DNA of 64,000 nt from Tridacna crocea (Eukaryota > Mollusca > Bivalvia > Cardiida > Cardiidae), in assembly GCA_943736015.1 (NCBI GenBank), contig OX031060.1, forward strand, positions 9,251,501-9,315,500, given 5' to 3'. Each line of letters starts with the position of its first letter. Position 1 is the first letter of the stretch. Below, piece by piece: positions 7,501 to 60,138 of this stretch. The notes under the pieces were generated by a model, which was not told the origin of the DNA, did no database searches, and saw only the letters and a program-made list of their open reading frames with translations. Both the position numbers and the translations under genes were made by a program.

Positions 7501-10500
7501 ATCGGCAAAACAGGGTTAAACCCTTTCCCAAACAACAAATTTTAGACTCTTCCAAACTGAAAGAGTTTGCAGACAACAATTTCAAATTTGATAAAAATGG
7601 TAGAAGGTTCTCCTAAAGGCTAGAAAACACTGGGGGAAAAGGAGAAATTGCTTGTTACGAGCAATTTCTCCTTTTCCCACAGTGTTTTCAAAAGACTTGT
7701 ACTGCAGTCACGTAAAAACCAGGACTTGTTTGGGAAAGGGTTAAGTGCATCTTTGTGATGTAATATACGGAGCAGGTATTTATAGGTTTAATAAGGTATG
7801 GGTAAAATCCTTTTTTTCAGACAACAGTAAGTTGTACTAGGTAGAATGGTCCTTGGACATGCAGAGAATTTACTCAAAACAAAATACATGAAGATTCTTT
7901 ACATGTTTATGACAAACAAGGGATTGTAAATATACTGAAGCTTTGCTCTGGCAAACGTGAGCTTTATGCATATCTGTGATGCATTATACTAAGCAATATT
8001 TCACATAATTATAGATCCATTTGATAAATTTTGTCTAAAAAATAATTAAGTCATAAGGTAGATAGGTCCTTTGAGATACAGAAAATTGGCCAGTTAGAAT
8101 TTCGGTCCAGGTCAGCCTGTGTGGACTGCCCAGGCTGACCAGGGTCGATAATTTTTGCAGATGTTTCAACTCACTACCAAACAACAATGTTTTAGACTTG
8201 TCCAAATTGAAAGCATTTGCAGACAACAACATAAAAGTTACTGAAAATTTTAAATTTGTTTTGTGAAGGGTAGAAAATGTTGTGGGAAAAGGAGAAAATG
8301 CTGGTTACCAGCATTTTCTCCTTTTCCCTCAATGTTTTCTAGAGGCTTCTCTCTCAAGAGTCGTCAAAAGTAGGGATTGTGTCGTAATGGGTTAAGCCCC
8401 GTTTTCAAAGAGCATGGCTCATTTTTATGTTGCGCGAAAAATGCAAGCAGGATTGAAATTCATGACTAAAAAAGATTGTAGTGACATGCCGACACATTGT
8501 GTAGGATTTGCATTGCAGCTTCTCACTCTAAGCATGTATAATTTTCTTCTTCTGATGAATTAGCTTCATATCCAAATTGAAATCTGGCGTATTTTCACCT
8601 CTCACCTCTGCTGAAGCATGTGAGAAAAAAAGTTGTGTTAGTACTGGTGTGAGAAAGCCAGGAAACACATGTGCGTCACTTACTGCCATGATATGACCTT
8701 AGCTGTTAAAGTGGTGTTAAGCCCAAATTCAACCAACCAAATTGAAAACCAGTTCTCATAAAATTACAGTATTTGATTAATATGGTTTTCAGGTTAAAAA
8801 AAACAGTTGAGAAAACATCATGGAAAAGAGAAAAAGTATAGAAAGTTTGCAGATAGTTGTTTTGCAGGAGTTGATTCTCTGAACTCTTTACTGCACAATC
8901 TTGACTTTTAACGTGAAAGCTTTCAATTTGGACAAGTTTGAAATTTGATCATTTTAAAAAGAATATAAAGACTGTGACTACAGTGTGATTAAAATTTTTG
9001 AAATGCAACTATGAAAGCCGAATGCATAAATTTGTTCTTTTTTGACATTTCAGGGTTGTAGCTCACCTCTTGTAGTAAAATTAGCAGATACACAGAAAGA
9101 AAAAGAACAGAAGAAATTTCAACAAATGAACGCAAATTTACTCATGTCTCTGGCTGGTGGAAATACAGGGGGCGGGGGAGGCTTTACAGCTAATATAGGT
9201 CCTCAATATTTGGCGGTAAGTACTCTATTCATAAACTCTATACCACATGGCAAAATTTCGACTCGTCCAAATAAAAGACATTTGCAGACAAAATATTAGT
9301 AGCTGCTGAAAGAATTGGATTTGGCTATGAAAGGTTAGACAACTTTTGTTGGAAACTGAGAAAAAATTCATGGTTTTAAGTTTTTCCTTCTTTTTCCCCC
9401 ACAATGCTTAAAAATCCTTTTTCCTGAGGGCTCTCCCTGCTCGGTCAAGCTCGGCCAAGCTCTCCCTGCACAACCAAGCTCTCCCTGCTTGGCCAAGCTC
9501 TTCCTACATGGCCAAGCTCATGCAAGGACAGGTGATTATGTGGGAAAGTAGCCAGTGGAGTGGAAAAAATGTTGACCAAGTCAGGCTTTTCCTTGTACTG
9601 TGTCAAACAGGATGTCATTTGATCTCTTTGAAAGAGTGAAAGGAGGCAACCATTGAAATTTTTTTAGACATTTAGAAAAACTTAGGGTCTGAAAGGGATT
9701 AAAGCAACAATGCAAAGTACAACTTGCAGAAACTTGTGGGTAGGTGCACTGTTGGAAACTACATTATCACTCTACAGGACAACAAAATTTGAGACTTTGC
9801 TGGTATCCAGCATTTTCTCCTTTTCCCACAATATTTTCTGCCATAAGACAGAAATCACTTACTTACAACATTTAATTTGTTGTCTGCAAATGATTTAAAT
9901 TTGGTCCAGTCCAAACTTTTATCATTTGATTAAGAGATAAGTTCTAAACTTTTGAAGACATGAATTCAGTTTAAGATCACATTATATTTCTGCCGGCTTA
10001 ACTCTTTCCCAAACGACAAACTTTTGGACTAGACCAAATTGAAAGCATTTGCAGACAACAAGTCAGCTCTTGCTGAATAGATGATTTCTGTCTATGGTAC
10101 GGTAGAAAACATTGTGGGAAAAGGAGAAAATGCTGGTTACCAGCATTTTCTCTTTTTCCCACAATGTTTTCAAAAGGTTACTATTCAGCACCCATAAAAA
10201 CCAGGGATTGTTTGGGAAAGGGTTAACTGAATATAAAGGTCACATAAAGAAAACAAAGAAGGAGGAGCATTAACAACTTTTAACACATGAAAATCAACAA
10301 GAATGTGCTAAATGTTAAAATTCAAAGCAGTGAAAGTACTTTCTACAAAGAAAATCAAAGCACTGATATCACTGAAAATTTTTTAAAACTTTTATATTTT
10401 AACTTTATCAGACAGAAATCATGAGATAAGCTACATTTGGTAGTTTGAAAATACTTTTAGGCTGCTTCAGTCCAAAATTTGTCATTTGGTAAGGTTAAGC

Positions 10501-16500: not shown

Positions 16501-19500
16501 AGAAAATGCAGATTACCAGCATTTTCTCCTTTTCCCACAATGTTTTCAGAAGGCCTCTACCTCAAAGTCGTAAAAACCAGTGATTGTTTTAGGCTTGTCC
16601 ATATCGAAAGCATTTGCAGACGACAAAATAAAAGTGACTGAACATTTGAAATTTGTTTTGTGAAGGGTAGAAAACATTGTTGGAAAAGGAGAAAATGCTG
16701 GTTACCAGCATTTTCTCCTTTTCCCGAAATGTTTTCTTAAGGCTTCTTTCTCAGGGTTGTCAAGAGTGTAGGGATTGTTTGGTAATAGGTTAAATGATAT
16801 AATTATAGGTCTAATAGGACAGAAAACATTTTGGGGAAAAAAGAGAAAAAGCTGGTTACCACTGTTTTTATAAGCCTTCCTTTTCAGGGTTGTGAAATAA
16901 GGGGCCTTTTTTGATCGGATTAAATACTTACAAAACTGTGAAGCGTTTCTGTAGCCCCATGGATGGAAGGATTTTACCAAAAAAAAGAAGGGAGAAAAAT
17001 GCTGGTTATATGCAATTTCTCCTTTTCTCAAAGTGTTTTCAAAAAGCTTCTCTTTCAGGATCGTTAAAAGTTGGGATTGTGTGGTAAATAGTTCAAAGAC
17101 AGACCCCATCATTCTAAACATGTACTGGACGATCAAATTTTGGACAAGTTCGAATTGTTAACATTTGCAGACATCATTTGTAATTGGGCTCAGGTGATTG
17201 AATTTGTCTCTGAAGATCGGATGGAAAACATTGTGAGAAAAAGAGAAAAATTGCTGGTTGCCAGCATTTTCTCTTTTTCGCATGATGTTTTCTAAAGGCT
17301 TCTTCTCCAAGGTTACTGAAATCTGAGACTGTTTGGCAAAGGGTTAACTCATAACCAAGTGACGAAATTTTAGTCTGGTCTCTCTGATGATTCCAATCTC
17401 TTTAAGGAAAGAAAACATTGTGGAAAAAGGAGAAAATGCTGGTTACCAGCATTTTCTCCATTTCCCTCAATGCTTTCAGAATGCATTTTTTTCGGGGTCG
17501 AAAATTTTAGACTGGTTCAAAATGAAAGATGATAGTTTAAATGGGGATCAAATGATGAATTCTGTCATTGATAGTGAAGAAAAAATTGTAGGAAAAGGAG
17601 AAAATGCTGGAAACCAGCAGTGTTTTTAAAAGCTATCTCTTTTAGTTCCGTTTAAACCCGGTATTATGTGGTAAACAGTTCATGAAGAGCACAAATAAAT
17701 GTTTGTTGAACCAGGTTTTGCCAGAGTAAGGCTGAAATAGGTATTCTTTTATCAGTCATAATCTTTGTATACCAGTATATGTTTCTGTGATAAGTTGTCA
17801 AAATAGGATGTCTTTTCATTGTTTCTTTGTATAAAGCGTTAAGCTGTGCTCTTTGAAATGGGGGCATAACATATCCGCAAAAAAAGTATCCACCCAGGTA
17901 AGCCCTTACAGTCCAGGCAGGCTGACCTACATCTAAAATTTTTGCTTTTCCTATATTTTCTGCATGTTAAAGGGCTTGACTACTGCAGGATTCAGTCCGT
18001 TATAATACGAAATGGAACTTACGAATACATAAATTTGTGACAGTTATTTTGTATTCATGTTGGAGATGCATTAACTGTTTACCAAGCAACAAATTTTTGG
18101 ACTAGACCAAACTGAAAACATTTGCAGACAACAAAGTAAACATGACCCGAAATTTGAAACTTTGCTTTAGAAGGTTAGAAAACATTGTGGAAAAAGGAAA
18201 AAATGCTGGTTACCAGCATTTTCTCCTTTTCCCACAATGTTTTCAAAAGGCTGTTTCCATGTGGTCATTAAAAGTCAATGCCAACTTTTAATGACACAGT
18301 GCTGACTTTTAATGACCCTGAGGAAAAAAGCCTTTTAAAACATTGTAGGAAAAAGGAGAAAATGCAGGTAACCAGCATTTTCTTCTTTTCTCACCATGTT
18401 TTCTACTCTTCCCAAATCAAATTTCTATTTTTGATTCCCACTTATTTTGTCATCTGCAAATGCTTTCAATTTGGACTGGTAAAAAGTTCTGTTGTTTGGT
18501 AAGTCTTTTAAAATATTGTGGGAAAAGGATAGAATGCTGATAACCAGCATTTTCTCCTTTTCCCACAATGTTTTCTACACTTCCCAAATCAAATTTCTAT
18601 TTTTTTTATTCCCATTTATTTTGTCGTCTGCAAATGCTTTCAATTTTGGCTAGTAAAAAACTTTGTCGTTTGGTAAAGAGTTAAGCCTCCTTTTGCCAGA
18701 GCATTATCTTGTTTGGTATCTGTATTGAAATATCTTCCAATGGTCTTTTTTAGGCATTCATTTAGTTCAGAAAAGATTTAAGATACAATTGAGATCTCTG
18801 ATGTATATACATGTATTGCTGATGGGACTTAAAAAGATAGGATTGTCTTTTAGATTCAACACATTTATTGTGAAGAGATGTAGATACCTGTTATACAGTC
18901 TTACTCTATTCAAATTCGAATTTCAGAAAAGATCTTTTGTTCTTTTTACTTCATCAGGACATGGTAAAATATTGTCCACAATGAAACATAAATAGATAAA
19001 ATGACTATTGTGATGTATCGTTTTGAGATTATCCCCTTTCCACACAAAGGAATTTTACACTAGCCCAAATTGAATCAGCATTTTCTCCTGTTCCCACAAT
19101 GTTTTCAAAAGCTTTCTCTTTCAGGGGCATTAAAAGTCATCACTGTGTGGTAAAAGGTTAATCACCTGGAAGAAGGTTTTTGGTAATGAGCATTTTCTCC
19201 TTTTCCAACAATGCTCTGTGCCCTTTTCAATAGAAGTCTGAGTTTTGAGTCACGTTTATTTTGTCGTCTGCAAGTGGTTACATTTTGAACTTGTTAGAAA
19301 CTTTATCATTTGGTTGAAAATTTAACCTGTTACCATAGAACCCTGCAGAGGAAGGCTTTTGAAAACATCATGCTAAAAGGAGAAAATGCTGGTAAGCAGC
19401 ATTTTTTTCTTTTCACATTCTGTTTTTTGCTTTATCAGAGACAGAAATAATCATTTGAACTGCATTTACTCTGTCGTCTACAAAATGCTTTCAATTTGGT

Positions 19501-22500: not shown

Positions 22501-25500
22501 GTTTGTGTATTGTCTGTCCATCCATCTGTTTGTCAGTTTGTGTATTGCTCTGGACAAAATGTGTTTAGGGACAATAAACACATATTTTGTCCAGAGCAAT
22601 ACACAAACTGAGCTTTTCACATACTGAACGCAAATTTAAACACAGTTCCTATGTATGTGAAGTTGTTCATGTGCAATTTTCATGACTCGGCTGCGATTTG
22701 TCACAGAATTATCTCCCCTTGATCTTTTTACAACTCTTACTTTTGTACTAAACCATTCTGCATTCTGTGACGAAGACCTGTTTTTGTCACAAGGAGCTGG
22801 TGGGTGACTGTATAATCAGATTTCTTGAATTCTAATTTTCTTATCTTATAATATTGTATACCTTTGATGTTGTGATGTGGTATTGTCTGGTGAAAAATCC
22901 TGCAACATGTAAAGTGCATGACATCATATTTTATTACTATGAAGTTTTCGATCCTTTTGGTCGTTTTGAGTATGTTTTAACCCATTACCACACAATCCCT
23001 ACTTTTGACGCCTCTGAGAAAGAAGCCTTTTGAAAACACTGTGGGAAAAGGAGAAAATGCTGGTAACCAGCATTTTCTCCTTTTCCCACAGTGTTTTCTA
23101 TCCTTTCCAGAACAAATTTCAATTTTTCACTTACCTTTATTTTGTCGTCTGCAAATGCTTTCAATTTGAACCAGTCTAAATTTTTTTCGAGTGGTAATGG
23201 GTTAACCCTTTACCACTCTAAATTCTGAAAAAAGGAGAAAACGCTGCAAACTAGCATTTTCTCTGTTTTGAAGAACGGTTATCACCTACCCAAAAATTTA
23301 TTTGAGGTTTTGACTCATACTGAAACTGTTTGTTGTCTGCATATGCTTTCAGTTTTGACCAATCTAAGAATTTATATGTTTTTGAAAGAGTCTAAGCTTT
23401 TGACGGAATGTAGAAGGCAGTGCTTATAGGTGATATCTTAGGGAAACAGACATCTATGTTTATGCTTATTTTGTAATTTAACAGGTCATTTCATATGGAA
23501 GTTAGTCAAAGTTATAGTTTTGTAGACTGTTAACTTTTTACCAAAACAAGAAAATTTTAGACTCGTCAAAAATGCAAGCCTTTGCAGATGACAAAAAAAA
23601 CATGAATCAGAAATTGAAAATTGACTTGGAAAGAATAGAAAACATTGTTGGAAAAGGAGAAAATGCTGGTTACCAGCATTTTCTCCCTTTCCCTCATCGT
23701 TTTCGGATGGCTTCTTCTTCTGGATTGTAAAAACCTAGGATTGTTTGGCAAAGGGTAGGAGTGATAAATGGTGCTTAAAAAAGAAAAGGCAATATTTCAT
23801 GTACTGTTAGAAAGCCCAAACAGTTTCTAATACAGTTTATGCTTGACTGTTTTCTTTTATCTTTTTCAACATCATCATTGTAAAAAAATGTGATTGTTTT
23901 CTGAGTTTTCTCATTGAACCATTAGGCTGCTAAGCACAGCTCACTGACCTTTTGCGGATAGTATGGGTCAAGATCAGACTGTACAGAACATGCAAAAATA
24001 AGTGCCTGTTTGCATTGTTCTGGTTTTTAGTGAGGGTTATCTGAATTGTCACTGCCGGTAAAGACAACTGAAAGCACTCGATGCATCTGAAAGTTAATTG
24101 GATCTTTCATCAATCCCTTTACCACAAAGTTCCTGGTTTTTACTGACCCTTGAAAAGAAGCCATTTGAAAACATTGGAAAAAGAGAAAATACTGGCAGCC
24201 AGCATTTTCTCCTTTTCCGAGAAAGTTTTCAATCACATCCAATTCAAATTGTATCGGTTTAGCCAGGTGTATATTGTTATCTGCAAGTTAAATTCAGACA
24301 TGTCTATATTTTGTTGTTTTGTAGAAAGCAATTCTGTCCGCTTTGCTCACATTTTGGATAACAGAAATCTGACTATTGCAGTCATTTGGATTTTTGTTTC
24401 TTGAGTAAAAATATTAATATGGTTTTTCTTACCTCTTTAAAGAATGACCCAGTACTAAACAATCCAGTGTTTTCTTGGCCTTGGAGTCGGAGGTCTTTGA
24501 AAACATTGTAGGAAAAGGAGAAAATGCTGGCATCCAGCATTTTTCCTTTTCCCCCACTGTGTTTTTAACCCTTCAAAGACAAATTTTAGTATTTAAGTCA
24601 CATTTGTCATCTGCTAGTGCTTTCAATTTGGAAAAGTCTAAATTTTTGTCCTCTGGTAATCCCTTCTGAATGAATTGATAGAATATTATCAGACAGTACC
24701 TGAAATTAATGCATTGATAGAATATTATCAGCCAGTACATGAAAGCGATAAATTCCCCCACCCACCCCCTGAATTGATACAATATTATCAGTCAGTACAT
24801 GAAGTCCAGAAATCCTCCCTGAATTAATTGATAGAATATTATCACTCAGTACATGAAATCCTCCCTGAATGAACTGATAGAATATTATGTCAGTACATGA
24901 AGGCAAGAAATCCTCCCCTGAATGAATTGATAGAATATTATCAGTCAGTACATGAAGTCCAGAAATCCTCCCCGAATTTATTGATTGAATATTATCACTC
25001 AGTACATGAAATCCTCCCTGAATGAATTGATAGAATAGTATGTCAGTACATGAAGGCAAGAAATCCTCCCCTGAATGAATTGATAGAATATAATCCTCCC
25101 CTGAATGAATTGATAGAATATTATCAGTCAGTACAAGAAGTCAAGAAATCCTCTCCGAATGAATTGATAGAATATTATCACTAAGTACATGAAGGCGAGA
25201 AATCCTCCCCGAATGAATTGATAGAATATTATCACTCAGTACATGTAGTCGAGAAATCCTCCCCGATTTAATTGATAGAATATTATCACTCAGTACATGA
25301 AGTCGAGAAATCCTCCCCGAATTAATTGACAGAATTATTATCACTCAGTACATGAAGTCGAGAAATGTGCACCTGTTGGCATATCATTTGTGCTGAAGGA
25401 ATGTGCTGGTTGGTTCCAACTGCCATTCATTATTTTGTCAGCATTCAGTTTTCTGCCAATGATTTTGTCGTATTGGGTTTCTTCATAGCTCTTAAAACTA

Positions 25501-28500
25501 AACCTTAGACTTGTCCAAATTGACAGGGTTTGCAGACAACAAAATGAATATAAGAAAAAAACTTTTTTTTTTTTTGAACAGGTTGAAAACTGTGAAAAAA
25601 AAGCATAAATGTTGTATACTAGTGTTTTCTACATTTTCCACAATGTTTTCAAAATTCTTCTTTGTAAGGGTGTTTTAAACTCAGGATTGTTTTATTAAGG
25701 CATAAACTGCAATTTTTAAATGATATTTGACAACAAGAATAAATTTAATTTTAAAATAAAACTAGGTAAAAAGTTTTTTAAAAAAATGATAGCAACCTGT
25801 CAACTTTTGACAGTTTGAAAATTCATTTTTCTACCAGCAACTTACACTTGGATAGATCATGCATTAGCAGATTGTCATCTGAATAATAACCATACTTTCA
25901 AATGGTATGATTTAAATCCAAATGCATTTTACAAAACCCTTTGTTTACTTTTAGTTGCTACTTAGCCTTTAACCCAGTACCACACAGCAAAATTTTAGAC
26001 CTATAATGGGTTAAGAAGAAGTGTTTTGAAAACATTATGGAAGAAGAAGAAAATTCTTGTAACTAGAGTTTTCTCCTTTTCCCACATTGTTTTCTCTTAC
26101 TCTGCCAAGACGAGTTTCAATTTTTAATTCACTTCCTAATTTTCATCTGCAAAGGCTTTCAATTTTGAGGAGTCTGAAAGTTTTGAGGATTTGTAAAAGG
26201 TTGATAAGTGATCTCTGATGCCCAACCATATCCACAGCTAGAAAGATGGGTAAACCTACAAATTTGCTAATATTATGCTCAAGTCTTGATAACACTGGTA
26301 TTAATGTGCGAATGGTAATGTAAGAGTTGTTTCCCTTGATATAGGGCTATTCAAATACATCTCAATACAGTCTTTGGACAATGGACATCTTTGATACAGT
26401 TTCGTGTTCAGGCAGTTTTCTTTTATAGAACTTTTCAAGATAAATAACAGATCTTTATGCCTGGAGCACTCTGGTCACATGGTTGGATGAAAGGAAATAT
26501 TTTAATCTTGAATAAAAAGGAAAAAATAACATAAAAAATAGGGAAGATGGGAAAAAAATGAAAGAAAAAAGAGTGACACTGATTTTTTAGCTGATCTGAG
26601 CGCTAAGTGCTCAAGGGTGAGCTTTTTTGGTCAAAGTGCTAGTCTCGGGAAGAAAAAATTATTTTTCAACCAAGATACAGCAGTTTGGTAACTTTTGACC
26701 TACTTTTAACTCTTTACCACACAATCCCGACTTCTAACGACCCCCAAGGAAGTAGCCTTTTGAAAATATTGTGGGGAAAAGGAGAAAATGCTGGTAAGCA
26801 GCATTTTCTCCTTTTCCCACAGTGTTTTCTACCCTACCAAAGACAGAAATCATCATTTGGGTTACATTCAATTTGTTGTCTGCAAATGCTTTCAATTTGG
26901 ACTAGTCTAAAATTTTGTTGTTTGGTAAAGAGTTAAATTTTATTTTTCTACCAGAGACAAACATTGATAAGACCTGATGATGACAGAATGTCACTTTTAC
27001 ACTTATTTGCATACTTTAATATGATATGATTTTAAGATGTCTTACCAACTTACTTAACTCTTTACCGAATGACAAAATTTGGGACCAGACCAAATTGAAA
27101 GCACTTGCAGACGACAAAAAAAATCTGAATGAAAAATGGAAATAATGTTTTGGGAAGGGTAGAAAACATTGTGGGAAAAGGAGATGAAATAAAATTCAAT
27201 CTTTATTGGAAAAAAAAATTGAATATGCTATTTATTTCATGCTTTTAATCCTGTCTGGGAGGAACCTATCCGAAAGCAAGAAATAATGACTTCTAACTAC
27301 TTTCTTAGGAATACTGACAACACAGCAGAATGGTTCTTAGAAGTGTGGTTTAAGGAAAAATTTATTTCATAAAGTGCAATCTCTTTAAACCCTGATCGGT
27401 CATCATATTGATATATAAGACCCTTATATATGTTGAGAGTCATGTTGTTTTGATTGCTGTGAATTTCCCCAATGTTTCATGACTTCCAAAAACCAGAATC
27501 ACTTTCATATAAATATTTGTAAATGTTTATATTGTCATCAGGCGGACCCAGTTACCAGCTTAATGTAGGAAAAAACATTTTGACAAAATTAGTTTCTACA
27601 TTTCTCACATTTGAAGCAATTAGTTTGATTGTGAGTTTATATTGTTTGTAGTGATGTATGTTTTTCTCAGACAGATTAGATGTCACTACAGTACATCATT
27701 TTTTTGTACTTTTGAAATAGCTTGATAGTAGTTTTGGTTTAAAAATTCTTATTTAAACCATATTTTCATAAATAGGCCTTCTTGCCGCATTAGCTGCCCT
27801 TGCGTCAGGGAACTCGGGGAGTAATAATAACTCGGCTTCATCAAACAACACGAATGGAAGCAATACAGCGGCAGGTACAATGTATCGTACACCTTAATTT
27901 TTTTTTCTGTGCAGCCGCTATTTATATTGTCTGCTCTTACACAGTTTATTTCATTAAAGTATTTTTTGGCTAGCTACATCTGCCTTGGTTTTTTTATTTC
28001 TGTCTGCATGAGATTTTATTATGGATTACTTCCTTACAAAACTCTCTCTGTGTTACAAAAGTTGCTTGAACTTACTTTTTTCTTTTAACCCTTTACATAA
28101 CAAACCCATGTTTTAACAATCTTGGGAAGAGAGCTTTTTGAAAACGTGCAGGAAATTGAGAAAATGCTGTTCAACAGCATTTCTCCATTTCCCACATGTT
28201 TTCTTCCCTCCCAAAGTCAAATTTCAGGTTAGGAGTCACCTTTATTTTGTTGTCTGCAAAATCTGTCTAATTGGACAAGTCTAAAAATATTGTTGTTTGG
28301 TAAAGGGTTTCGGACTTATTTGTTTGCATGACATTATAACAAAACATTACTTAACTCTTTACCAAATGACAAAATTGTAGACTTGTCCAAATTGAAAGCA
28401 TTTGCAGACAACAGAATAAATGTGGCTCAGAAACTGAAATTTGTTTCCGGAAGGTTAGAAAACATAGTTGGAAAAGGAGGAAATGCTTGTTACCAGCATT

Positions 28501-31500: not shown

Positions 31501-34500
31501 TAGATCAAGATGAGAGTGCTCAAAATTGCAGTCAAATTTAAATCTTTTTTGTCTGAAACATTTATTTCATCTAAAGATGATTGTATGGGTTATGAAGGCA
31601 GTTAATCTTAGACACAAATAAGCAAAATTAAGACTTTTTGCCCTTTTACCACACCATTCCTAGTTTTAGTGGACCTGAGACAAAGGACTTTTGAAACCAT
31701 AGTGAGGAAAAGAGAAAATACTGGTTACCAGCATTTACTACTTTTCCAACAGAGGTTTCTGTCCTTTGGAAAAGTTCCATAATTTATGTTATATTTATTT
31801 TATTATCTGCAAAAGCTTTCAGTTTGAACCAGTCTGAAATTTTCTTACCTGGTAAAGAGTTAAAACTTCAAGTAAATTTGGGCTAAAAAATCTCAAGAGA
31901 ACATGGATGATGCATTACATCTTTTTGGCTATTTATTTTTTTGTGTGTCTTTAAGAAATGAGGAGGTAGGAAATGTACAATAATGATCAAGCCTGTGCTT
32001 GAGAAGCCACAAAGCTGTATGGAAGCTTGTATCGTATTGAAGAATAAATGTGCAATGAATAATTTTTGTATTAAATGAAAACCGTTTAATAGTTGCAATG
32101 AATTGATATATTCTGGTATGCGTCATGCATTGTAGTTATCAGCACTTATTGCAAAGTAGAGTGCTTAGCCTGCAGTCTTTTGAATCTCTTTAACTTTATA
32201 AATTCTGGACTAGGATTGTTCTCTCTAGCTCTCATAACCAGAGATGATATTGTTTAAGGCCCTAGACTTTTCCCATTTCATACTACATCAGTCTTGTTGA
32301 TAATGAAAGAATTGATAGCTCAAATGATGAATTTTTCTTTTTTGAAAGTGGAGAAAAAATTTTTCTCATCTTAACATTTTCTCATCTTCTCACAATGTTT
32401 AGGAAAGCAAACTTCTCAGGATTTTAGAAAAGCAGGCTTTTTGGTAAAACTGACTAGTGAACTGTAAATTGTGTTCACTTAGTAAAATATCTGTGTCAAT
32501 TGGACAACTGTTTCTGATCTAGACTGTTGGATATTTTATGACATACTCTACTTTAAATGCAAAATTAAGATCTTCTTTCCAACTCTGAAAATGGTCTGTC
32601 ATTAACGCTTGACAACTAGAAATGACTAAAGTTGCCCATAGGGTGGGTATAGAACAAGATCAGATAGCACAATTATTTGATCTAAGATCTACCCTGTTAG
32701 CTTCCTTGATATATATTCTGGCCAAAGGAATCTTAAAATATTAGATTTGAGCTGTGTCCTGGAAAGGAGGTTTAACTCTTTACCAAATGACAAAATTACA
32801 GACTGGTCCAAATTGAAAGCATTTGCAGAATGACAAAATTAATATGACCGAAAATTTAAAATTTGGTTAGGAAGGGTAGAAATTGTTTGGGAAAAGGAGA
32901 AAATGCTGGTTAACAGCATTTTCTCCTTTCCCCAAGGAGTTTTCAAAGGCTTCCCTTCTATGGGTTGGGAATGTGTGGTAAAGAGTTAATGCATCATCAA
33001 GACGCATGATGACAAGCAAGGCATCCCATGTATGATATCCATTTTGTCTAACAAGCCGCTGAGTCATGAAATAGACTGGTCCCAGACATGCAGAAAATTA
33101 TCAGTGATAAGAAGTTTCATCCCAGGTTAGCCTGCCTGGACTGTGCAGGCTGACAGGAGTTAATACTTTTTGCAAATGTATATAGCTTCCTTTTCACAGA
33201 AACAGTTCATTTCATTAATTTATGTTATCTTATCAAAACTATAATTCATGTTATGGATTTCTGGATTTTTTACCATTTTGTGACCATAGATATGTTTCTA
33301 TAGGAATCAAGTAATTTTTTTAAAAACTTATAAAGATAAAGTTGAAAGTGTCCTTGCAATTACATAAAGCTTCTGAAATGTTAGGAAAAAACATTATGTT
33401 GAAAATAAGAAGGGAAAGAAAAATGCAACATTTTGTATATCTCAATACTTTATCAATTTCAGTTACAAGTTGAGATAATTATGGTGATAAAATGTAGATA
33501 GAACAATACTTTTTTTAGAAGTAAAGATTTGCTGTATTTTCTTTTTAGACAAAAATATGAAAGTCTTTCTCCAATTAATGAGATGTTTATAGACAGTTTC
33601 CAACTCTAATAACACTTTACCAAATAACACTTTACCAACAGAAATTTCAACATGTCAAAATTGAAAGTATTTGCAGGAAAAAAAATTAATAGGTCTTGAA
33701 AATTAGTTTTGGGAAGGAAAAGAAGAAGAAAATGATGATTACCAACCTTTTTTCTTATTCTCACAACATTTTCAGAAGGCTTCTTTCTCAAGGTTGTTAA
33801 AAGTCGGCAAAACCTTTCTTTCTCATTAAGAGTTGAGTTAGCTTTGTGGACCCAGTAGGCACAAAATGTCTTTTGGATTTGGAAGAGAAAACAATATGCT
33901 AATTAGAAAAAATTTGCAACCAGTGTTTTGTAAAGGATGATTATTGTAACAATCTCAGTTTTTACAATAATTTCAGCACTTTGATTTGGTATTAACTCTC
34001 TTTATAAAAAAAGTACTTTCAGTGCTTTGATTGAAAGAGAATTGATTCCAAATCAAAGTGCTGAAACTACCGTAAAAGTGGAGACTGTTAACAATAATCA
34101 AAGCACTGGAAAAATCAACGTGGTGAAACAACCGTAAAAAATGATACTGTTACATAATGTCATATGCCCTTTGTATTTTGCAGGTGATGCATCTAACAGT
34201 ATGCATATACAAAATTTACAAGGTTTGGCAGCACTGGCAAATGCCACTAGTAATCCAGGTAGGTCAAATTTGAATTTTTTTTTTAAATAGCTAACATGTC
34301 ATATTCTGATGCTAAGAGACATTTGAAGCAGTTCTACTTTATAACTCAGTGGGTTATGATGCAGGAACTGGCTTTTTTGTGGCATGACCCTATGAAAAGA
34401 AACACAAATACTTCGTCTAATTTTTGTAAATTCTATGGACAATAGTGTTGGAACATTGTTAGAACAAATCAAGATTGGAAGCATGTTTTGCACAAAGTTA

Positions 34501-40500: not shown

Positions 40501-43500
40501 TTTGAATTGGAAAGGATGGAAAACCTTGTGGGTAAAGGAAAAAATGCTGGTTACCAGCATTTCCTCGTTTTCCCACAATGTTTTTAAAAGGCTTCTTTCT
40601 CAGGGTCATCAAAAGTAGGGATTGTGTTTTAATGGTTTAAGTCTTTTTCAAGTAACCTCTCCAGTTGGACACACTGTCTCATTATGACTGTCTGTGAGAA
40701 GATTGGAAATGATGTTGACCATGCTTCGTCAAAGTATATATACCTAGGAAAAGCAACAGAAATCAAGATGGCTTTTTCAGTTTGGGAAAAAGACCTAAAT
40801 ACTGTAGTGCATTTCAAGGCGTCTTTGATTGTAGTATATTGTAAAAGATTGGGTTAGTGTAGATTCACCATCAGACTGCAGAGAGGATACAGTCTTATTT
40901 TGAATCTCTTCTGGGTCCGTATTCACCAACCATTCTTAAGATCATTCTTTGCCATGTTCTTCAACATTTTTCTAACAGTGAAAGCAACAGAACATCTGAT
41001 TGGCTAAACCAAATAGTATTTGGTTTAGCCAATCTGAAGTTCTGTTACTTTCACATTGACAAAATTCTGAAGAATAATACTAAGAATGTTTTTAAGAATG
41101 GTTGGTGAATACAGACCCTGTTTAGAGGTGTGCACAGTGCTAAGTCATTTCCAATTGACAATCATATATGTTACATGTTACACCCACATTCATATAGCCA
41201 AGGTCATATGGAAGCGCAATAAATCTTTATTATCGTGTTTTTCAGCATCACTTTCTGGGTCTCTGTCCACTTCTAACAGCTCACTGAGTGGTTTTGCTGG
41301 CATACAGAGTATTGGCAATAACAACATGGCTGCCACAAGCATGTCCCCAAGCATCACCAATGGCCTCAATAATAATACATCGGGCATCGACGCCTTAACC
41401 CAGGCGTACACTGGAATTCAACAATACGCAGGTTTGTCAGGTTTACTCAGCCCCGCTACAGGTAAATGGCTCATTTTATATAATTTCAAAAATTGTCCAA
41501 TATCAATTCTGTGTTGAAGTGCTCCAGCAGGCTAAAGGGACGGGGATCCATGTGTTTTTATCTCTGTGTGGAACATTCATTGTTCTTGTTTGCTTTTTCA
41601 TACACTTGTTGCTTTGTGTATTCCAGGTTGTTTTTATCAAAATCGCACAATTTTTAACAAAATTTCTCATAGATTTCATACTTTTGTATTACTGTCCTCA
41701 AGTGCCATAGGTTAATACAAGAGCAGGGTTAGAAATAGTTGGGAAAAAAAAAAACATTTTACAAGAGAAAAATTCAATTGAGGATCCTAATATCTGTTTC
41801 TCTTAAGAATGATAGAAATTGACATTTGTTGTGGCTGTTAAAATGCATATAATATTCTAAAGGGAAAAAAAAAGGAAACCTGAGTACAGCAAACAAGAGT
41901 TATGTTTCTCTGCCTAAAAGTTTTAAACTATAAAAAATATTGAAAGTAACACTACAGTATGAAATCTACAGAAAGATAACCCACACATCCCAATACAATA
42001 ACTGACAGCTGAATTTGTTCCTTTTTATTAATCATCAAATTATGGAATGTTAAGGACGGAATTTTTATGGTTTGTTTTTGAAACCAGCCTTTACATTATT
42101 TTCACAAGATGTTCGTTACAGTGAAATAAGGAAATGAATTCAAATGGATGTTTTGTTTTCATCTTAACTCATTACCATACAAATGTAATTTTTGCTTTCT
42201 AAAACTATAGGAAAAGCAATTTCATTGTTGCCTGTATTGTTTAATATTTCACTGAAAAATAGATGGGTTTCTTAGGGGAAAGGTTGCTACTTTATACTAC
42301 CTGTACTGCTTGTGAAATACATTGACTCTTTGTGACCATTCTGTGTTTTTACTACCTTGAAGAAGAGGGCTTTTGGGAACATTGTGGGGAAAAGATGAGT
42401 TGCTGGTAGCAGGCATTTTCTCCTCATTCACAAATTTTTTGTACCATTTTGGAGACAATTTCGATCATTCATGTCATGTTTGTCAGTTATCTGCAAATGC
42501 TTTAAATGTGGAAAGATGTGTCATTTTGTAATTTACTGAAATGTATGGTAACAAGCTAATTTCTTGTTAAGAGGAATATAGGACACTTATTCCAAAATCA
42601 CCAAGTTTGATATAAGAAAGGAGAATTTTTATTTAGATAAGTAAATTTCATATTTACCATGTCATATTTTGAGATTTTCGTAAGCCCCAATGGCTAATGG
42701 AAAATGAATTTATGTCATGGGACAGTCTCTGTAGATGTATCTGTGCATCTTTAAACCTAAATTTTAATTCAAATATATTTGCTAGCTTTGGGCTAAGTCA
42801 AAATCCTCTACAGATTTTTGTCGAAAAAATTCAGTTCCATGGCTACCATGCTGATATAATCTTTATAATTCTCTTGTTTGGTTGTTTCAACAAGATTATT
42901 TTCACTACAAAATGACATGCATAATCTTTTTGTAGACTTTTTCATGCTGAATAGCGACTATGTTGAGAGAGAACATTTCTGATTTCATACAAAATGATTC
43001 TTTGTATCAAAATCTAGTATTAGTAGAAAATAGTTGTTATGATAATTATTTTTATAATATGAAATATAACAGTGTCCTGATGGCTACTAGGAAGGGTTAT
43101 TTGTTTTATTGGTCAGTGGAGCAATGCAAGGCCGTCGTGGCCCTTTTGCTACGGTAATTTATATCATAAAACCGCCAACCTATATTCTTCAATTGAATGT
43201 ATTTGTCCTTAAGGGTGTCTTTTTCTGACTTTCTATTCTATAATACCATGTAACTTGTTTGTCTGCAAGTGATTTATTTAACTTTTGTGAAATTTCAAAC
43301 GCGTGCAAAATTATCCTTTATAGCAGTGTGATATCTGTTCAGAAATTGTTAGTAAAATAACTCTGATATTAACTCATTACCAAACGAAAAATTTTAGGTT
43401 TGTCCAAATCGAAAGCATTTGCAGAAGACAAAATAAAAGTGACTGAAAATTTGAAATTTGTTTTGTGAAGGATAAAAAACATCGTGGGAAAAGGAGAAAA

Positions 43501-46500
43501 TGCTGGTTACCAGCATTTTCTCCGTTTCCCACAATGTTTTCCAAAGGCTTCTTTCTTAGGGTCGTCAAAAGTAGGTAATGGGTTAAGTCTGGGACTTGCT
43601 TAATTCGGAGCATTATTGAAATAAAAGCAAGTATACCATAAATGGATTAATGGTAAACAGAACTGAATATTCTAGTTTTTTGTTACACAACTCCCAGAAA
43701 AACCTTTGGAAGACTGAGCTTGAATGTTTGAGAGTGAATAGAATTCTTTTTGAGGATTTTGATTCATTCTTTAGAGCACACCCAGGAGCTTTAACAGCTC
43801 CAAGGAAAAGGCCTTCTGAATAACATTTTGGGAAAAGGAGAAAGTCTGTTAACCAGCATTGTCGCCTTTTCCCAAATTGTTTTCAATTTCTATTTTTGAG
43901 GTAGAGCTATTTTGTCATCTGCAAAAGCAATTTTAACAAGTCAAAAATTTTGCTGGGTCATAAAGATTTGACAGAATAAGGTTGTAAGAGGGTATTTTGA
44001 AAATTCTGAAATTCATTTGTCTGATTAAGAGTTTCAAGAGGACAGAATACAGAGTATAGCTATCTTGGCACTTTCTCAGCAAAAGGGATGACAACAAGGC
44101 TGTGCAGAGCATGAAGTACACTGGATTCATCAGTGTTTAATGTTCTGCATAATGCACCACAAATTTGGAAAATCTTTATTTGGTTATCTTTATTGACATT
44201 ATTGTCTCTGTCATCAATTTTGCACATTTTCTGTGGGGTTTTTTTTTTACAGAAGAAGGATGGTTGTTTTATTGTTATTAACTACTTTTTATTTGTTTAC
44301 ATGTTGGAGTGCATTATTTCCTAGCTACACAGTGTCTCTGCATGCCTCAGTACATTGCGCTAGAGATTGTTAAAAAAATGATAAAATTTACTCCAGAATA
44401 AATAATTAATTCTTTTTTGAAGAAGATTAAGAAATGAAATGATTATGGTCACAAGGTTGATCCTTGTTGTTTTTCATGATAAAATGAGCCATGACCCAGG
44501 CAAAGATATCTAGCTTTAGATATTGTATGGCATGCAGTTGTAGTCTCTTGTAACTTCTTGTGTTTTTTGCCTTTTCCTATCCCTGAGTGTATTGCATGCA
44601 CAATTTCATAATGTACGCTGTATCTGTAATTTGTCTCAGGTTTGAGTGCTGACATCAACTTTGGTGTTTTTTTTTCAAACTTGAAAACCAAATATTTTAG
44701 CACAATGTAGAAAAAAAAATAGGGTAAAAAAGTTACTCTGAAAGAAATACATTTTTAGCTCACCTGAGCAGGAAGTGCTAAGAGTGAGCGACTGTGATAG
44801 TGCTGTGTCCATCGCCAACTTTTTACCTTATGTACGCTCTAGAGGCCACATTTTTCGTCCGATAATCATGAAACTTGATCAGAATGTTTGCCTCAATGAA
44901 ATCTTGGACGAGTTTTAAAATTGGGTCATGTCGGTTCAAAAACTAGGTCACTAGGTCAATTTTAGAAAAACCTTGTGTACGGTCTAGAGGCCACATTTTC
45001 AGTTCGATACTCATGGAAGTTGGTCAGAAAGTTTGCCTTGATAAAATCGTGGACGAGTTTGAAAATGGGTCATGTGGGGTCAAAAACTAGGTCACTTGGT
45101 CAAATCTTAGAAAAACATTTATTATGCTCTAGAGGCCACATTTTCAGTCCGATAAACATGAAACTTGGTCAGAATGTTTGCCTCGATGGTATCTCGGATG
45201 AGTTTGAAAATGGGTGATGTCAGATCAAAAACTAGGTGATCTTGTGTAAGCTCTAGAGGCCACATTTTGAGTCCAAAACTCTTGAAAGTTGGTCAGAATG
45301 TTTGTCTTGATGATATCTTGGATGAGTTTGAAAATGGGTCATATCGGTTGAAAAACTAGGGTCAGAAACTAGGTCACCAGGTCAAATATTATGCCACATT
45401 TTCAGACAAAAACTCTTGAAAGTTGGTCAGAATGTTTGTCTTGATGATATCTCGGACGAGATTGAAAATGGATCATGTTGGGTCAAAAACTAGGTTACCA
45501 ATCTTAGAAAAACCTTGTATATGCTCTGGATGCCTGATTTTCAGTCCAACACTCTTGAAAATTGGTCAGAATGTTTGCCTTGATAATATCTTGGATGAGT
45601 TTGAAAATGGGTCTTGTTGGGTCAAAAACTAGGTCAATAGATCAAATTTTATATAAACCTTGTGTATGCTCTGGAGGACACATTTTCAATCTGATACTCC
45701 TGAAACTTGTTCATAATATTTGTCTTGGTGATATCTTGAATGAGTTTGAAAATGGGTCATGTGGAGTCAAAATCTAGGTCACTGGGTCAAATATTAGAAA
45801 AATCTCGTGTACACTCTAGAGGCCATATTCTCTGCCTGATACTCTTCAAACTTGGTCAGAATGTTTGTTTTGGTAATGTCTCAAAAGAGTTTGATAATGG
45901 GTAATTGTTGGGTCCAAAACTAGGTCACTTGGTCAAATCTTAGAAAAACCTTTTGTACGCTGTAGAGGCCACATTTTTAGTCCAATACTCATGAAATTTG
46001 GTCAGAATGTTTGTCTTACTGATATCTGAAAAGTGTTTGATAATGGGTAATGTCTGATACAAAACAAGGTCACTGGGAAACTAGATGGAAAATGGTTCAT
46101 GTTTGGTCAATAGACTCCGGTGAGCGATTTCAGGGCCATCATGGCTTTACCAAACTCTTTACCAAACAATTTTGACTTTTAACAACCCTGAGAAAGAAGC
46201 CTTGTGGTAACCAGCATTTTCTCCTTTTCCTACAATGTTTTCTACTCTTCCCAAAACAATTTTCAATTTTTGAGCCGCATTTATTTTGTTGTCTGCAAAT
46301 GCTTTCAATTTGAACCAGTCTTCAATTTCGTCGTCTGGTAAAGAGTTAATTGATGATATAATAATAAACTTAAATAATCCCAGAAGATTGAATGACCAGG
46401 ACCCTTTTTCCTTGCATAACAAGAATTTTTACAGCAAAAATTCAGAGACAGTTACTTAAAATTGAGACATGGTATTTGTGCTTCATATCCTGTCTTGGTG

Positions 46501-52500: not shown

Positions 52501-55500
52501 ATTTGCTAAATAGTTAATAATGAAAACTGTCAGCCTGGAAAGAAATTTAGTATGCTTTTGGAAATTATAGTCACCTTTGTGGCCAGTTATAATCAAGATA
52601 AGTCTTCTTATTTGGTGAAATGTAATCTTTGATTTACACTGTTTTGTCTGGGACATTTGTGGTCATAAGCCAACTTTAAGCTTCAGTTATTCTGGTCTTA
52701 AAAAGAATTTGCAGACAAGTTAAATGTAATTGAAAGGATGATTTTTGTGTTTGATGGGGAAGAAAACATTGCAGGAAAAGGTGAAAATGCTGGCTACCAG
52801 CATTTTCTCCTTTTCCCACAATGTTTTCAAAAGGCTTCTATCTCAGGGTTATATAAACTCGGAATTATGTGGTAATGGGATAGAGTAACAAGGTAGTTCA
52901 ATTAAGAATACTGGATAATTAGGATAGTGCCTGCTTACCTAAAGCGCTGGTTTCTAAGATGATGTTGTAATTTCTATAATGACTGGTTTCCTTTTCAGCA
53001 TCATTCCCTGGAGCTTTCAGCACACAAGCAGCTCAGCAGTTACAGGCTGCTAATTCTCCTGCTGGGAAACAAACTGAAGGTAACATACCCCTAATCTTAG
53101 TAGGGAAATTATCATAACCCCACGAAACGAATATTTTCAGGGGTATACTGGAATCAGCCAGTCTGTCCATGTGTCTGTCCAAAATCGAAGCACTGGCAGG
53201 GGGATTAACCCATTACCACACAATCCCTACTTTTGACGCCCTTGAGAAAAAAGCCATTTGAAAACACTGTTGGAAAATGAGAAAATGCTGGTAACCAGCA
53301 TTTTCTCCTTTTCCCACAGTGTTTTCTACCCTTCCCAGATCAAATTTCAATTTTTTAGTAACCTTAATTTTGTCGTCTGCAAATGCTTTCAAATTGGACC
53401 AGTCTAAAATTTTCTCGTGTGGTAAAGAGTTAAGACATATTCAGTAACAGCTCTAGTTTCTTTTTAAACAACTACATGCTGTATTTTCATTTCCATCATG
53501 GCTGTTATCGAAGTATTTTCATAGCCTCTGTGTCAGGAAAAAAGATACTTTCTGATATCACTGCCATTACTGAAGATATTAATGTTAGACTCCGGCTAGT
53601 TTTTAACGTCAAATGTGGAGACTAATATCAGAAGGACAGGTAATTCTAAACCTATTTCTGGCACAGTTATGCCCCATTTTATATTTGAATTTTCATTTAG
53701 TGTGGACTGTCACATGCTGTTCAGGGTGCGTATTCACCAACCATTCTTAAAGGTGGGTATTTAGAATTTTTACATCTCACCAAATTAAAAAATATATATA
53801 TCACTGAAATTCATATGAAAAAATAGTACAAATCATCAATAATTAAGATTCATAAAATCACAAAAAAAAATTTTTTTTGATGGTATTCCCTTAAAAGGCT
53901 ACATAGCCTCTTAAGCTATTTTTAGATTTCGCGCCAAAAATCATTAAAGCATTGTGGGAATGTCAAGTAACTGGCACGTGACTCATAACGCTTAAATTCC
54001 CTATCATAACAAACATGTAATAATTATTTTCCATAATGTCTTCTTCAGACGCTATGTTTGAAGCTTCTTCTGTGTATTCCTGTAAGTAAATGATGATCTA
54101 AAAATAGAACGTGTCTCCCGTTGGTGTCAACCTGGGCCGTAGTAAATCTCTAATTTCTCGTGTTGTCGGACAGTTTTCGACTACTGGGGTTTTATGAATG
54201 AAAATTAAAAGGCTTTGGGGGTATAAGGATGATTTTTTTGCACTTTTGTAAAATTTTCATCCCAAAATCTGAAGGGCCACCATTAATGCCATTCTTTGTC
54301 TTATTCTCCAAGATTTTCCAAATTTGAAAGTAACACACCGTCTGATTGGCTGAACCAAATAGTGTAGCCAATCAGAAGGTGTGTTACTTTAACCTATCAC
54401 CACACAATCCATACTTTTGACGACCCTGGGAAAGAAGCCTTTTTAAAACGGTCACCAGTATTTTCTCCTTTTCCCACAATGTTTTCCTCCCGTCTTACAA
54501 CAAATTTCAAATTTTGAGTCATATTAATGTTGTCATCTGCAAATGCTTCCAATTTGGACAAGCCCAACATTTTGTCATATGGTAAAGAATTAAAATTTGG
54601 ACAAATCTAGAGAATAAGGCAAAAAAAATATTCCTAAGGACGGTTGGTGAAAATGAACCCAGGTTTCCTGCTTTCCATACAGACTGAACTCTTTGCAGAC
54701 CATAGTCGTAACCAGGAAAAAGTAAATTATATGCACACTGAAGTTGGCCATTTTTGAGGCAAGTGACGAGAGCAATTCGGAATCAGCCGAATGGAATGGG
54801 AGCCATAAAATTAAGATATTTCTGGGTCCGTATTCACCAACCATTCTTGAGAATATTCTTTATCTTATTCTCCAGAATTTTCTACATTTGTAAGAAACAT
54901 AACTTTGATTGGCTAAACCCAATGGTTTAGCCAGTCAGAAGTTGTACAAAACCTTGTAGAATAAGACTAAGATTACTCTCAAGAATGATTGGTGAATACG
55001 AGCCTTGATCTTGGCTGTTTTAGAAAACGTCCAAACTGAAAAATACGCGAAAAGAATCAACCTTGATTTTTTTGCATGTGCGTGGTGTGCATAATAGAAG
55101 TAACGCCTATGCAGACTGACATGACTTTGCCACAAATAATTCGAGTAACTTGTAAGGTATTGAGGATTTAGAAGAATTATAGCTTGATACATAAAAACAT
55201 GTACCGGTAAGCATTGTTGCTGGAAGAAAAAGTGCAAACAGGGTAACTTTTTCACCCTTGACATCAATGTTTTTAATCAAAGACTGCTGTAAAATGAAAA
55301 AATATAATGCTTCAGGGTTGACATATACAAATTTGTCAGTAACACAACTTCTGATTGGCTAAACCATTCGGTTTAGCCAATCAGAAGTTGTGTTACTTAC
55401 AAAATTTTTAATGTAACTGGAAGCTTTAACTTTTTTAAAGTTTCTGCCGTTAAATAAATGATACAAGAATGCCTTGTATTAATTCAAATATTGATAAAAA

Positions 55501-58240: not shown

Positions 58241-59459
58241 TGATTAGTAAACAAAGGTGAGTTAACAAAACTTTGTTTTTGCTTTCATTTTATTTTTTAG
58301 ACTTCATACTTGTATTTAACCTTTCATGGATTTGAATGCTCTTTCAAATTGGTGAGAATAATGCTTGAAAACACTCTAATATGATGAGCAGTCTGTCATT
58401 GTGTTACAGTGTTTTTGTGTTTGGAAATTCCACATAATTTCTGCTCAGTTAACATGTCTTTGGCTTAGAAAAGTGCCAAATACAAATTTATAATTGCCTC
58501 AAAGGTAAGTAAAGGTCACATCAATGTCACTGAACTTTGTATGCTACACTCTGGAAAGTGTTTTTCTTCTTTTGGTATTTTACACCTTGAAAAATTAGAT
58601 TTGAAGATAGTTAAAAAAAGAAAACGCTCATAGAATATGAAAGAATCTATGATATAATTATTTATTATGTGGAACCTCATCATGTTATTCATATTACCAG
58701 CCTTGTTCTATATTTGCAGTGAATCTACTATTGTACATGTGAATTGCTCAAGAAAGGCAATCATACCTTGCCTCTTGATGCTGTTAAGAATTTGAAGTTT
58801 TGTTGAAATTTGAGACTTGTGTTATTGAAATTGCAATATAAAATGAAAGCATACTTTTCAGATAAGTACATTCAAGGAAATCCATAAGAACAACATTTTG
58901 AAACAGGGTGTGGCACAAGGTACAGACCAAGGCAGCTGATCTTAATAACTTGATTTTCCATCAATTTATGACCGATATTTTTAAAAAAATGGTGGGAAAT
59001 AGTTAAGCAACTTGTTATGTCAATAGTTTTGATCTATTGAAAGACAGCCATATATCCTTTAAATGTTGGCTTTGCAGTGTAGGGACAGACTTGATTGCAT
59101 GGAAAGTACATGCTGAGTTTTATCTACACTGATATTTAAATTTATGAGAAACAAGTTAGCATTCCTATTCTGGCTAAAGAATCTTTTTCTTACCATTACT
59201 AGTCTAAGGTTAAGTGACTCAAGTATTTCTTGTAAGGATAAGTTCTACTATGAAGGAATCATACTAAATAGATAGAGCATGTCTATAAAATGGCACATGT
59301 ATGGAGCAGAATGGAAACAGATCCCCAACAATGAATGACAAAGACATGAATTTTTTATCTTCTGTAATTGCACACAGTTGTATATCATTGTGCTTGTTTT
59401 TGGAACGTCTGATGCTTAAGAGTTGAAGAGCTTGACAAGTATCTCATATGTACAATTAA
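58241..59459 (+). other. CELF: 3' UTR start, with a possible intron donor
   Basis: AT-rich sequence follows the stop. At 58251-58262 ACAAAG|GTGAGT matches the donor consensus very well, so the 3' UTR may be spliced 16 bases after the stop, or it may run on. No ORF and no palindromic MITE was found here. Confidence 0.5.
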
Positions 59460-59800
59460 TATTATCGTCCCCCCCACAGAGAAGTGGAGGAGAGGTATAC
59501 TGGAATGGCCATGGCTGTCTGTCTGTCTGTCCATAGACACAAATTTGTCTGACGAAATACTCTTGACAGGTACTGAAAACAAATTTGCACACATTGTGCC
59601 TATATAGATGAAGTTGTGCACATGCAATTTTCATCACCCTGCTGCAGTTTGTTGTGGAATTCTCTCCCCTTGAACTCTTATCAACTTTTACTTTATCAAC
59701 TCTTACTTTTGCACTAAACCATTCTGCATTCTGTGACAAAGACCTGTTTTGTGACAAGGAGCTGGAGGGGGGTATAATCACGTTTATTGATAGCTCTAGT
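59460..59800 (+). mobile_element. TATACCCC family element in the 3' region
   Basis: It starts ATCGTCCCCCCCACAGAG with GAGGTATACTGGAATGG and ends GGAGGGGGGTATAATCACG with ATAGCTCTAG. The left TATACCCC has decayed. Confidence 0.72.
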
Positions 59801-60138
59801 TGACTTCTAATTGTGATAGCAATATTAAAAGGAATAGGCCCTGAACTATGATGGCAGCTAGTTTGTAAGTTATGTAGAAAAGTGATGTTCCAGAAATAAG
59901 CAGTTTATACAATATTTATCTGATGTGATGATTGTTATAAACCTCCATTCATCTTTACCCTGATTGCAGTGGGTCTTATAATTAACAGGATTCTGTTGTA
60001 AACAATACATCCATCAACCTCTGTGTAGTATAATGGAAGGTATGTAATGAAATTAACATGTTATTAGAAGTCAAAATTTGTAATGCATCAGCTCTCACTG
60101 AGCAATACCCACCCTCATTTTGTAGAATACGGCATGCA
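59801..60138. other. 3' region without recognised element
   Basis: Nothing recognised. Confidence 0.4.

Follow-up and report, generated by a model that had tools for sequence, protein, structure and literature searches.

The closest published relatives that we have seen of the MITE family described here are the CMITEs of the coral Acropora, which are of the piggyBac type (PMC2872659). As characterised in that paper, they resemble our family in being small and non-coding, in having TTAA duplications and left termini starting from CCCTTT, and in occurring as arrayed copies with right ends that drift from the piggyBac hallmark terminus, given there as CC[C/T]T. A further likeness is that both a filled and an empty allele are described for one CMITE locus. 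The length of CMITEs is about 100 bp, whereas the consensus of the present family measures 229 bp and harbours a palindrome, roughly 70 nt long, in its interior, and comparison of its internal region with the CMITE internal consensus gave no similarity above that of shuffled sequences (216 and 496 of 500 shuffles reached the score). The left terminus agrees with those of CMITE families I and VI at 9 of 13 and 9 of 14 bases, respectively. The coral piggyBac-like transposon AmiPB4, from the same paper, shares the TTAA, and its terminus CCCATTCCC... resembles the variant CCCATTACC found here; measured against our consensus, the agreement is 9 of 16 bases on the left and 7 of 16 on the right, and no transposase was seen in the 20 of 41 open reading frames of at least 90 aa that were scanned in the window, by which we mean the whole stretch of 64,000 bases that was analysed. 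The T2-MITE/Kolobok elements, as portrayed in PMC6004289 and PMC9587614, have the TTAA duplication in common with our family but carry RR termini where ours are CY.

Past mobility of such elements can be revealed by RESites, in which the joined flanks of an insertion are compared with a paralogous unfilled copy (PMC2213677). Our analysis proceeds in the same way, except that the opposite arm of the foldback itself serves as the unfilled copy, and this foldback-arm control is a special case of the standard method as set out in that paper.

The MITE family in the window

A profile built from 16 MITE copies and searched against the 64,000-base window gave 166 matches; with overlaps removed these amount to 91 copies or fragments, of which 40 are near full length. 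Copies were aligned with MAFFT. The family covers 16,412 of the 64,000 bases (25.6%), and its density peaks at 16–24 kb (4,228 of 8,000 bases). Near-full copies are 61–93% identical to the consensus, and the family is therefore not uniformly young. When folded as single-stranded DNA, one copy reached -57.4 kcal/mol, whereas shuffles averaged -20.6 (z -10.8) and none of 200 was as good. The focal copy is missing the left arm of the internal palindrome, which accounts for 24 gap columns in its alignment to the consensus; over the other columns the two are 86.8% identical. The left arm is absent from three of the 40 near-full copies (54389-54593, 46153-46349, and 15565-15759), the right arm from none. 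An exact search of viral contigs with 25 bases of the internal palindrome returned no matches, and short strings from the repeats had no match in the published text that was searched.

The G+C content of the window ranges from 0.31 to 0.39 in 2-kb steps. An open reading frame on the plus strand (56324-56773) encodes half an RRM, most like that of CELF (CUGBP/Elav-like) proteins (a human-type CELF1 structure scored best, at E 2e-25), and is apparently an exon; because of this CELF-like RRM part the window is of animal origin and probably intronic. One MITE copy, starting at 56670, lies within the span of this frame. A Pfam scan of 20 of the 41 window open reading frames of at least 90 aa found no transposase domains at the thresholds used. 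A match of 59419-59904 (minus strand) to an atypical CARD domain is weak and probably due to chance (E 0.0044; 17.4 bits where the cut-off is 28.6), and the remaining matches in the 20 scanned frames were weak and under their cut-offs.

The termini of the family are CCCTTTACCA and CTCTTTACCA. They form imperfect inverted repeats, in which the 15 bases next to TTAA agree at 12 positions and the first 10 of them at 9. Several features are those of piggyBac-type MITEs, namely a TTAA target and duplication, small size and high copy number (229 bp, 91 copies or fragments in 64 kb), and terminal inverted repeats in the range of 12–19 bp, here imperfect. The left termini, CCC[T/A]TT, appear to fit the hallmark, with CCCT and CCCA the commonest forms and C as second base in 61% of 49 ends; the right termini are mostly CTCT, which falls outside the strict CC[C/T]T, with T as second base in 84% of 55 ends. 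Taken with the small non-coding size, these termini broadly fit piggyBac MITEs as described in PMC2872659. The other superfamily to be weighed is Kolobok, which also makes TTAA duplications and is common in bivalves, and in which TTAA is followed by 5'-RR (PMC9587614, PMC6004289). In our family TTAA is followed by C at 98% of the 49 left ends and 96% of the 55 right ends, and then by C or T. A Kolobok-type MITE was rejected on these termini despite the shared TTAA, and we regard it as quite unlikely; by their sequence the termini appear to fit piggyBac better.

The focal insertion and its unfilled arm

The focal MITE copy lies within one arm of a foldback, and the opposite arm is unfilled (Table 1), as the preliminary description had recognised. 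Joined across a single TTAA, the flanks of the insertion align with the other arm of the same foldback in 84 of 100 columns (2 gap columns, E 4e-24), and the junction itself is gap-free. At the junction the joined flanks read GTTACTTTAAAATTTGG and the reverse complement of 54318-54334 reads GTTACTTTCAAATTTGG. These are 17 bases each, identical at 16 of 17, and the mismatch is the third base of TTAA; the earlier claim of two 17-base arms with one difference, inside the TTAA, was thus exact to the letter on recheck. Pairing between the arms is 96% over the inner 25 nt and 78% over the outer 37 nt that span the insertion. The bases that flank the two focal TTAA repeats differ (T and A before, C and A after), so that the direct repeat is no longer than TTAA.

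The host foldback is a real repeat, with two related copies and a partial one elsewhere in the window; the likeness of the fourth, partial copy to the focal foldback (55328-55407) stops near the junction. Two short fragments, at 53717-53751 and 15385-15413, match the outer ends of the foldback family. In an ungapped comparison of 34 bases over both strands of the window, the foldback's own arm ranked top at 28 of 34 and another foldback copy was runner-up at 25 of 34. The locus is represented by a single assembly, and an empty site could in principle be mimicked by chance resemblance or an assembly artefact. Chance resemblance of the arms was rejected, however, on the E-value of the joined alignment and the rank of the own arm in the window, and related foldbacks without the insert, together with the 40 near-full copies of the insert elsewhere, make either explanation hardly conceivable.

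Table 1. Positions of the focal insertion, its host repeats, and MITE junctions in the window
Feature	Position	Strand	Remarks
Focal MITE copy	54389..54593	+	205 bp including both TTAA
Target duplication, left TTAA	54389..54392		
Target duplication, right TTAA	54590..54593		
Focal foldback, unfilled left arm	54291..54351		Contains the reference 17-mer 54318-54334
Focal foldback, right arm, inner part up to the insertion	54366..54388		
Focal foldback, right arm, outer part past the insertion	54594..54662		
Second foldback copy	54820..55006		No MITE at the corresponding place
Third foldback copy	40909..41118		Both arms present, unfilled
Fourth foldback-like copy	55297..55436		Inner part, partial relative
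MITE copy inside a different host repeat	8166..8395	-	Flanks TCAA and TTAA
Empty paralog of the repeat hosting 8166-8395	17847..17928	-	76.8% over 82 columns, E 4.7e-12
Second empty paralog of the repeat hosting 8166-8395	33122..33200	+	75.9% over 79 columns, E 5.7e-11
MITE copy with downstream context TTAAGCCCC as at 8166-8395	55755..55980	+	
Junction with a single TTAA	767..788		Common to MITE copies 551-779 and 776-898
Junction with a single TTAA	17335..17356		Common to MITE copies 17124-17347 and 17344-17500
Right MITE end, TTAA, then terminal-repeat-like sequence	23193..23214		Right end of copy 22977-23205

Length and sequence of the duplication

Length scans, in which the number of bases removed at the joined junction was varied under ungapped or free-end scoring, gave a best value of 4 bp for the focal insertion against its own arm (free-end scores of 76 at 4 bp, 74 at 5 bp, and 71 at 3 bp; ungapped matches of 28, 27, and 25 of 34, respectively). 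Against the 40909 copy, 4 bp was best on the plus strand (45) and 5 bp on the minus strand (41 vs 38 at 4 bp), and against the 54820 copy 3 and 4 bp tied. The two comparisons with the 55297 copy scored low, with maxima at 10 and 2, since its resemblance to the focal foldback gives out close to the junction.

A different repeat that also hosts MITE copies has the motif TTAAGCCCC; this second host repeat occurs at 8091-8455, 17847-17928, 33122-33200, and 55695-56055, and presumably resembles one that is abundant in bivalve genomes. The MITE copy at 8166-8395 gave 4 bp as best value against the empty paralog at 17847 (37) and a tie of 3 and 4 bp against that at 33122. The copy at 55755-55980 probably lies in the same host repeat, a tentative placement that rests on its downstream context, which is 83.9% identical to that of 8166-8395 over 31 nt (E 5e-4), and on a match of its flank to 33169-33200 (E 0.097); its length profile was flat against both paralogs. 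A candidate empty site for copy 26706-26936 at 25802-25837 was rejected as too short (E 1.5e-5, 38 nt, 2-nt gap). Matches spanning the junctions of the copies at 22977, 551, and 10560 were set aside because the flank is itself MITE sequence, and those of the copies at 53205 (E 0.34) and 13068 (E 0.097) because they are weak.

A single comparison pins the length down no more closely than to about one base, and some of the references carry no information on it. Over all comparisons a duplication of 4 bp, give or take one, would be the best fit. The preliminary description had proposed that the host carries its own empty-site control, from which a 4-bp TTAA duplication can be inferred without a second genome. 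The length held up, with the qualification that the one arm pair scores 5 bp close behind 4 bp. The sequence was not borne out by the control arm, which reads TTCA on the minus strand at the target position and so does not itself show a TTAA target. The control gives the length of the duplication and not its sequence, because the C of this TTCA, at the position where the inserted arm has A, is invariant in six of six reference foldback arms. At the target the foldback reference arms are of the TTCA, TTAC, or TGAC type, and TTAT (17847) and TATA (33122) stand there in the second host repeat's empty paralogs; TTAA was found in none of these empty references.

It is chiefly the other MITE copies in the window that identify the duplicated sequence as TTAA. 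Exact TTAA stands at the left end of 29 and the right end of 29 of the 40 near-full copies (at both ends in 20), against a background frequency in the window of 0.0083 per position. Among ends reached by the profile it stands at 36 of 49 on the left and 39 of 55 on the right, to be read with the seed ends of the 16 profile copies having mostly been chosen at TTAA, which favours seeing it there. The next four bases outward are TTAA at none of the 49 left or 55 right ends. Conservation is 0.90–0.91 at the first T but 0.41 and 0.35 at the base just outside it, and both T and both A of TTAA are about equally conserved at both ends.

Copies of the family also abut each other and share one TTAA. The window contains two such junctions between called copies and a third site, 23193-23214, from which no second MITE copy was called; a search for the junction pattern found six matches (three sites, both strands) against a mean of 0.04 in shuffles. 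The abutting pairs are 71% and 83% identical, within the range of 60 random pairs (median 75%, range 65–94%), so recent tandem copying is not indicated and was rejected as the source of the junctions. The junctions are explained, without tandem duplication, if one copy had inserted at the TTAA that ends another. For the coral CMITE arrays, the authors of PMC2872659 favoured replication slippage.

These observations bear on two other ways of reading the repeat. The TTAA could belong to the element, the insertion having replaced four target bases, or a shorter duplication (TA, TAA/TTA) could lie inside an obligatory TTAA, modelled on Tc1/mariner-like (2-bp) or PIF/Harbinger-like (3-bp) elements. 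All of these readings predict the identical joined length, a 2- or 3-bp duplication within an obligatory TTAA is formally indistinguishable by sequence comparison, and TTAA is read in none of the empty references. Replacement, however, predicts unrelated bases at the empty site, whereas 8 of the 12 target bases in three independent empty references agree with TTAA (P ~0.02 in a rough binomial test with a chance of 1/3 per position), and abutting copies that each carried a TTAA of their own would not be expected to share one. The about equal conservation of all four bases at both ends, for its part, would not be needed for a target of 2 or 3 bp alone. We consider these readings unlikely.

Proposed history and significance

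We are confident, short of certainty, that a trans-acting piggyBac-like transposase inserted a non-autonomous piggyBac-type MITE at a TTAA within one arm of a foldback that was already there, duplicating that TTAA. The foldback would have formed first, and an ancestral TTCA in one arm most likely mutated to TTAA, a change private to that arm. A piggyBac-like transposase acting in trans would then have inserted the MITE at the mutated TTAA, and staggered joining would have duplicated it. For piggyBac, opening of a TTAA hairpin is described to leave a 4-nt overhang, and the ends are then joined, 4 bp apart, to the two strands of a TTAA target (PMC7351741).

It is very unlikely, by our estimate, that the element's own TTAA overhangs were instead written into a non-canonical TTCA target on both sides, which would make the duplication donor-templated and only apparent. 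Such a course fits the invariant C of the six reference arms and the TTAA overhang that hairpin opening leaves, but piggyBac integration, in the account of PMC7351741, occurs overwhelmingly at TTAA. The mutation-first order, with a C-to-A change preceding insertion, would be the simpler of the two.

The insertion is an ordinary process with a neat built-in control. More striking than this control is the local density, with a single MITE family making up a quarter of the window, and every insertion of the MITE adds a TTAA, a possible target for later ones. Foldback repeats carry their own unfilled control, so that old insertions become datable, and the length of their duplications can be estimated, within one genome.
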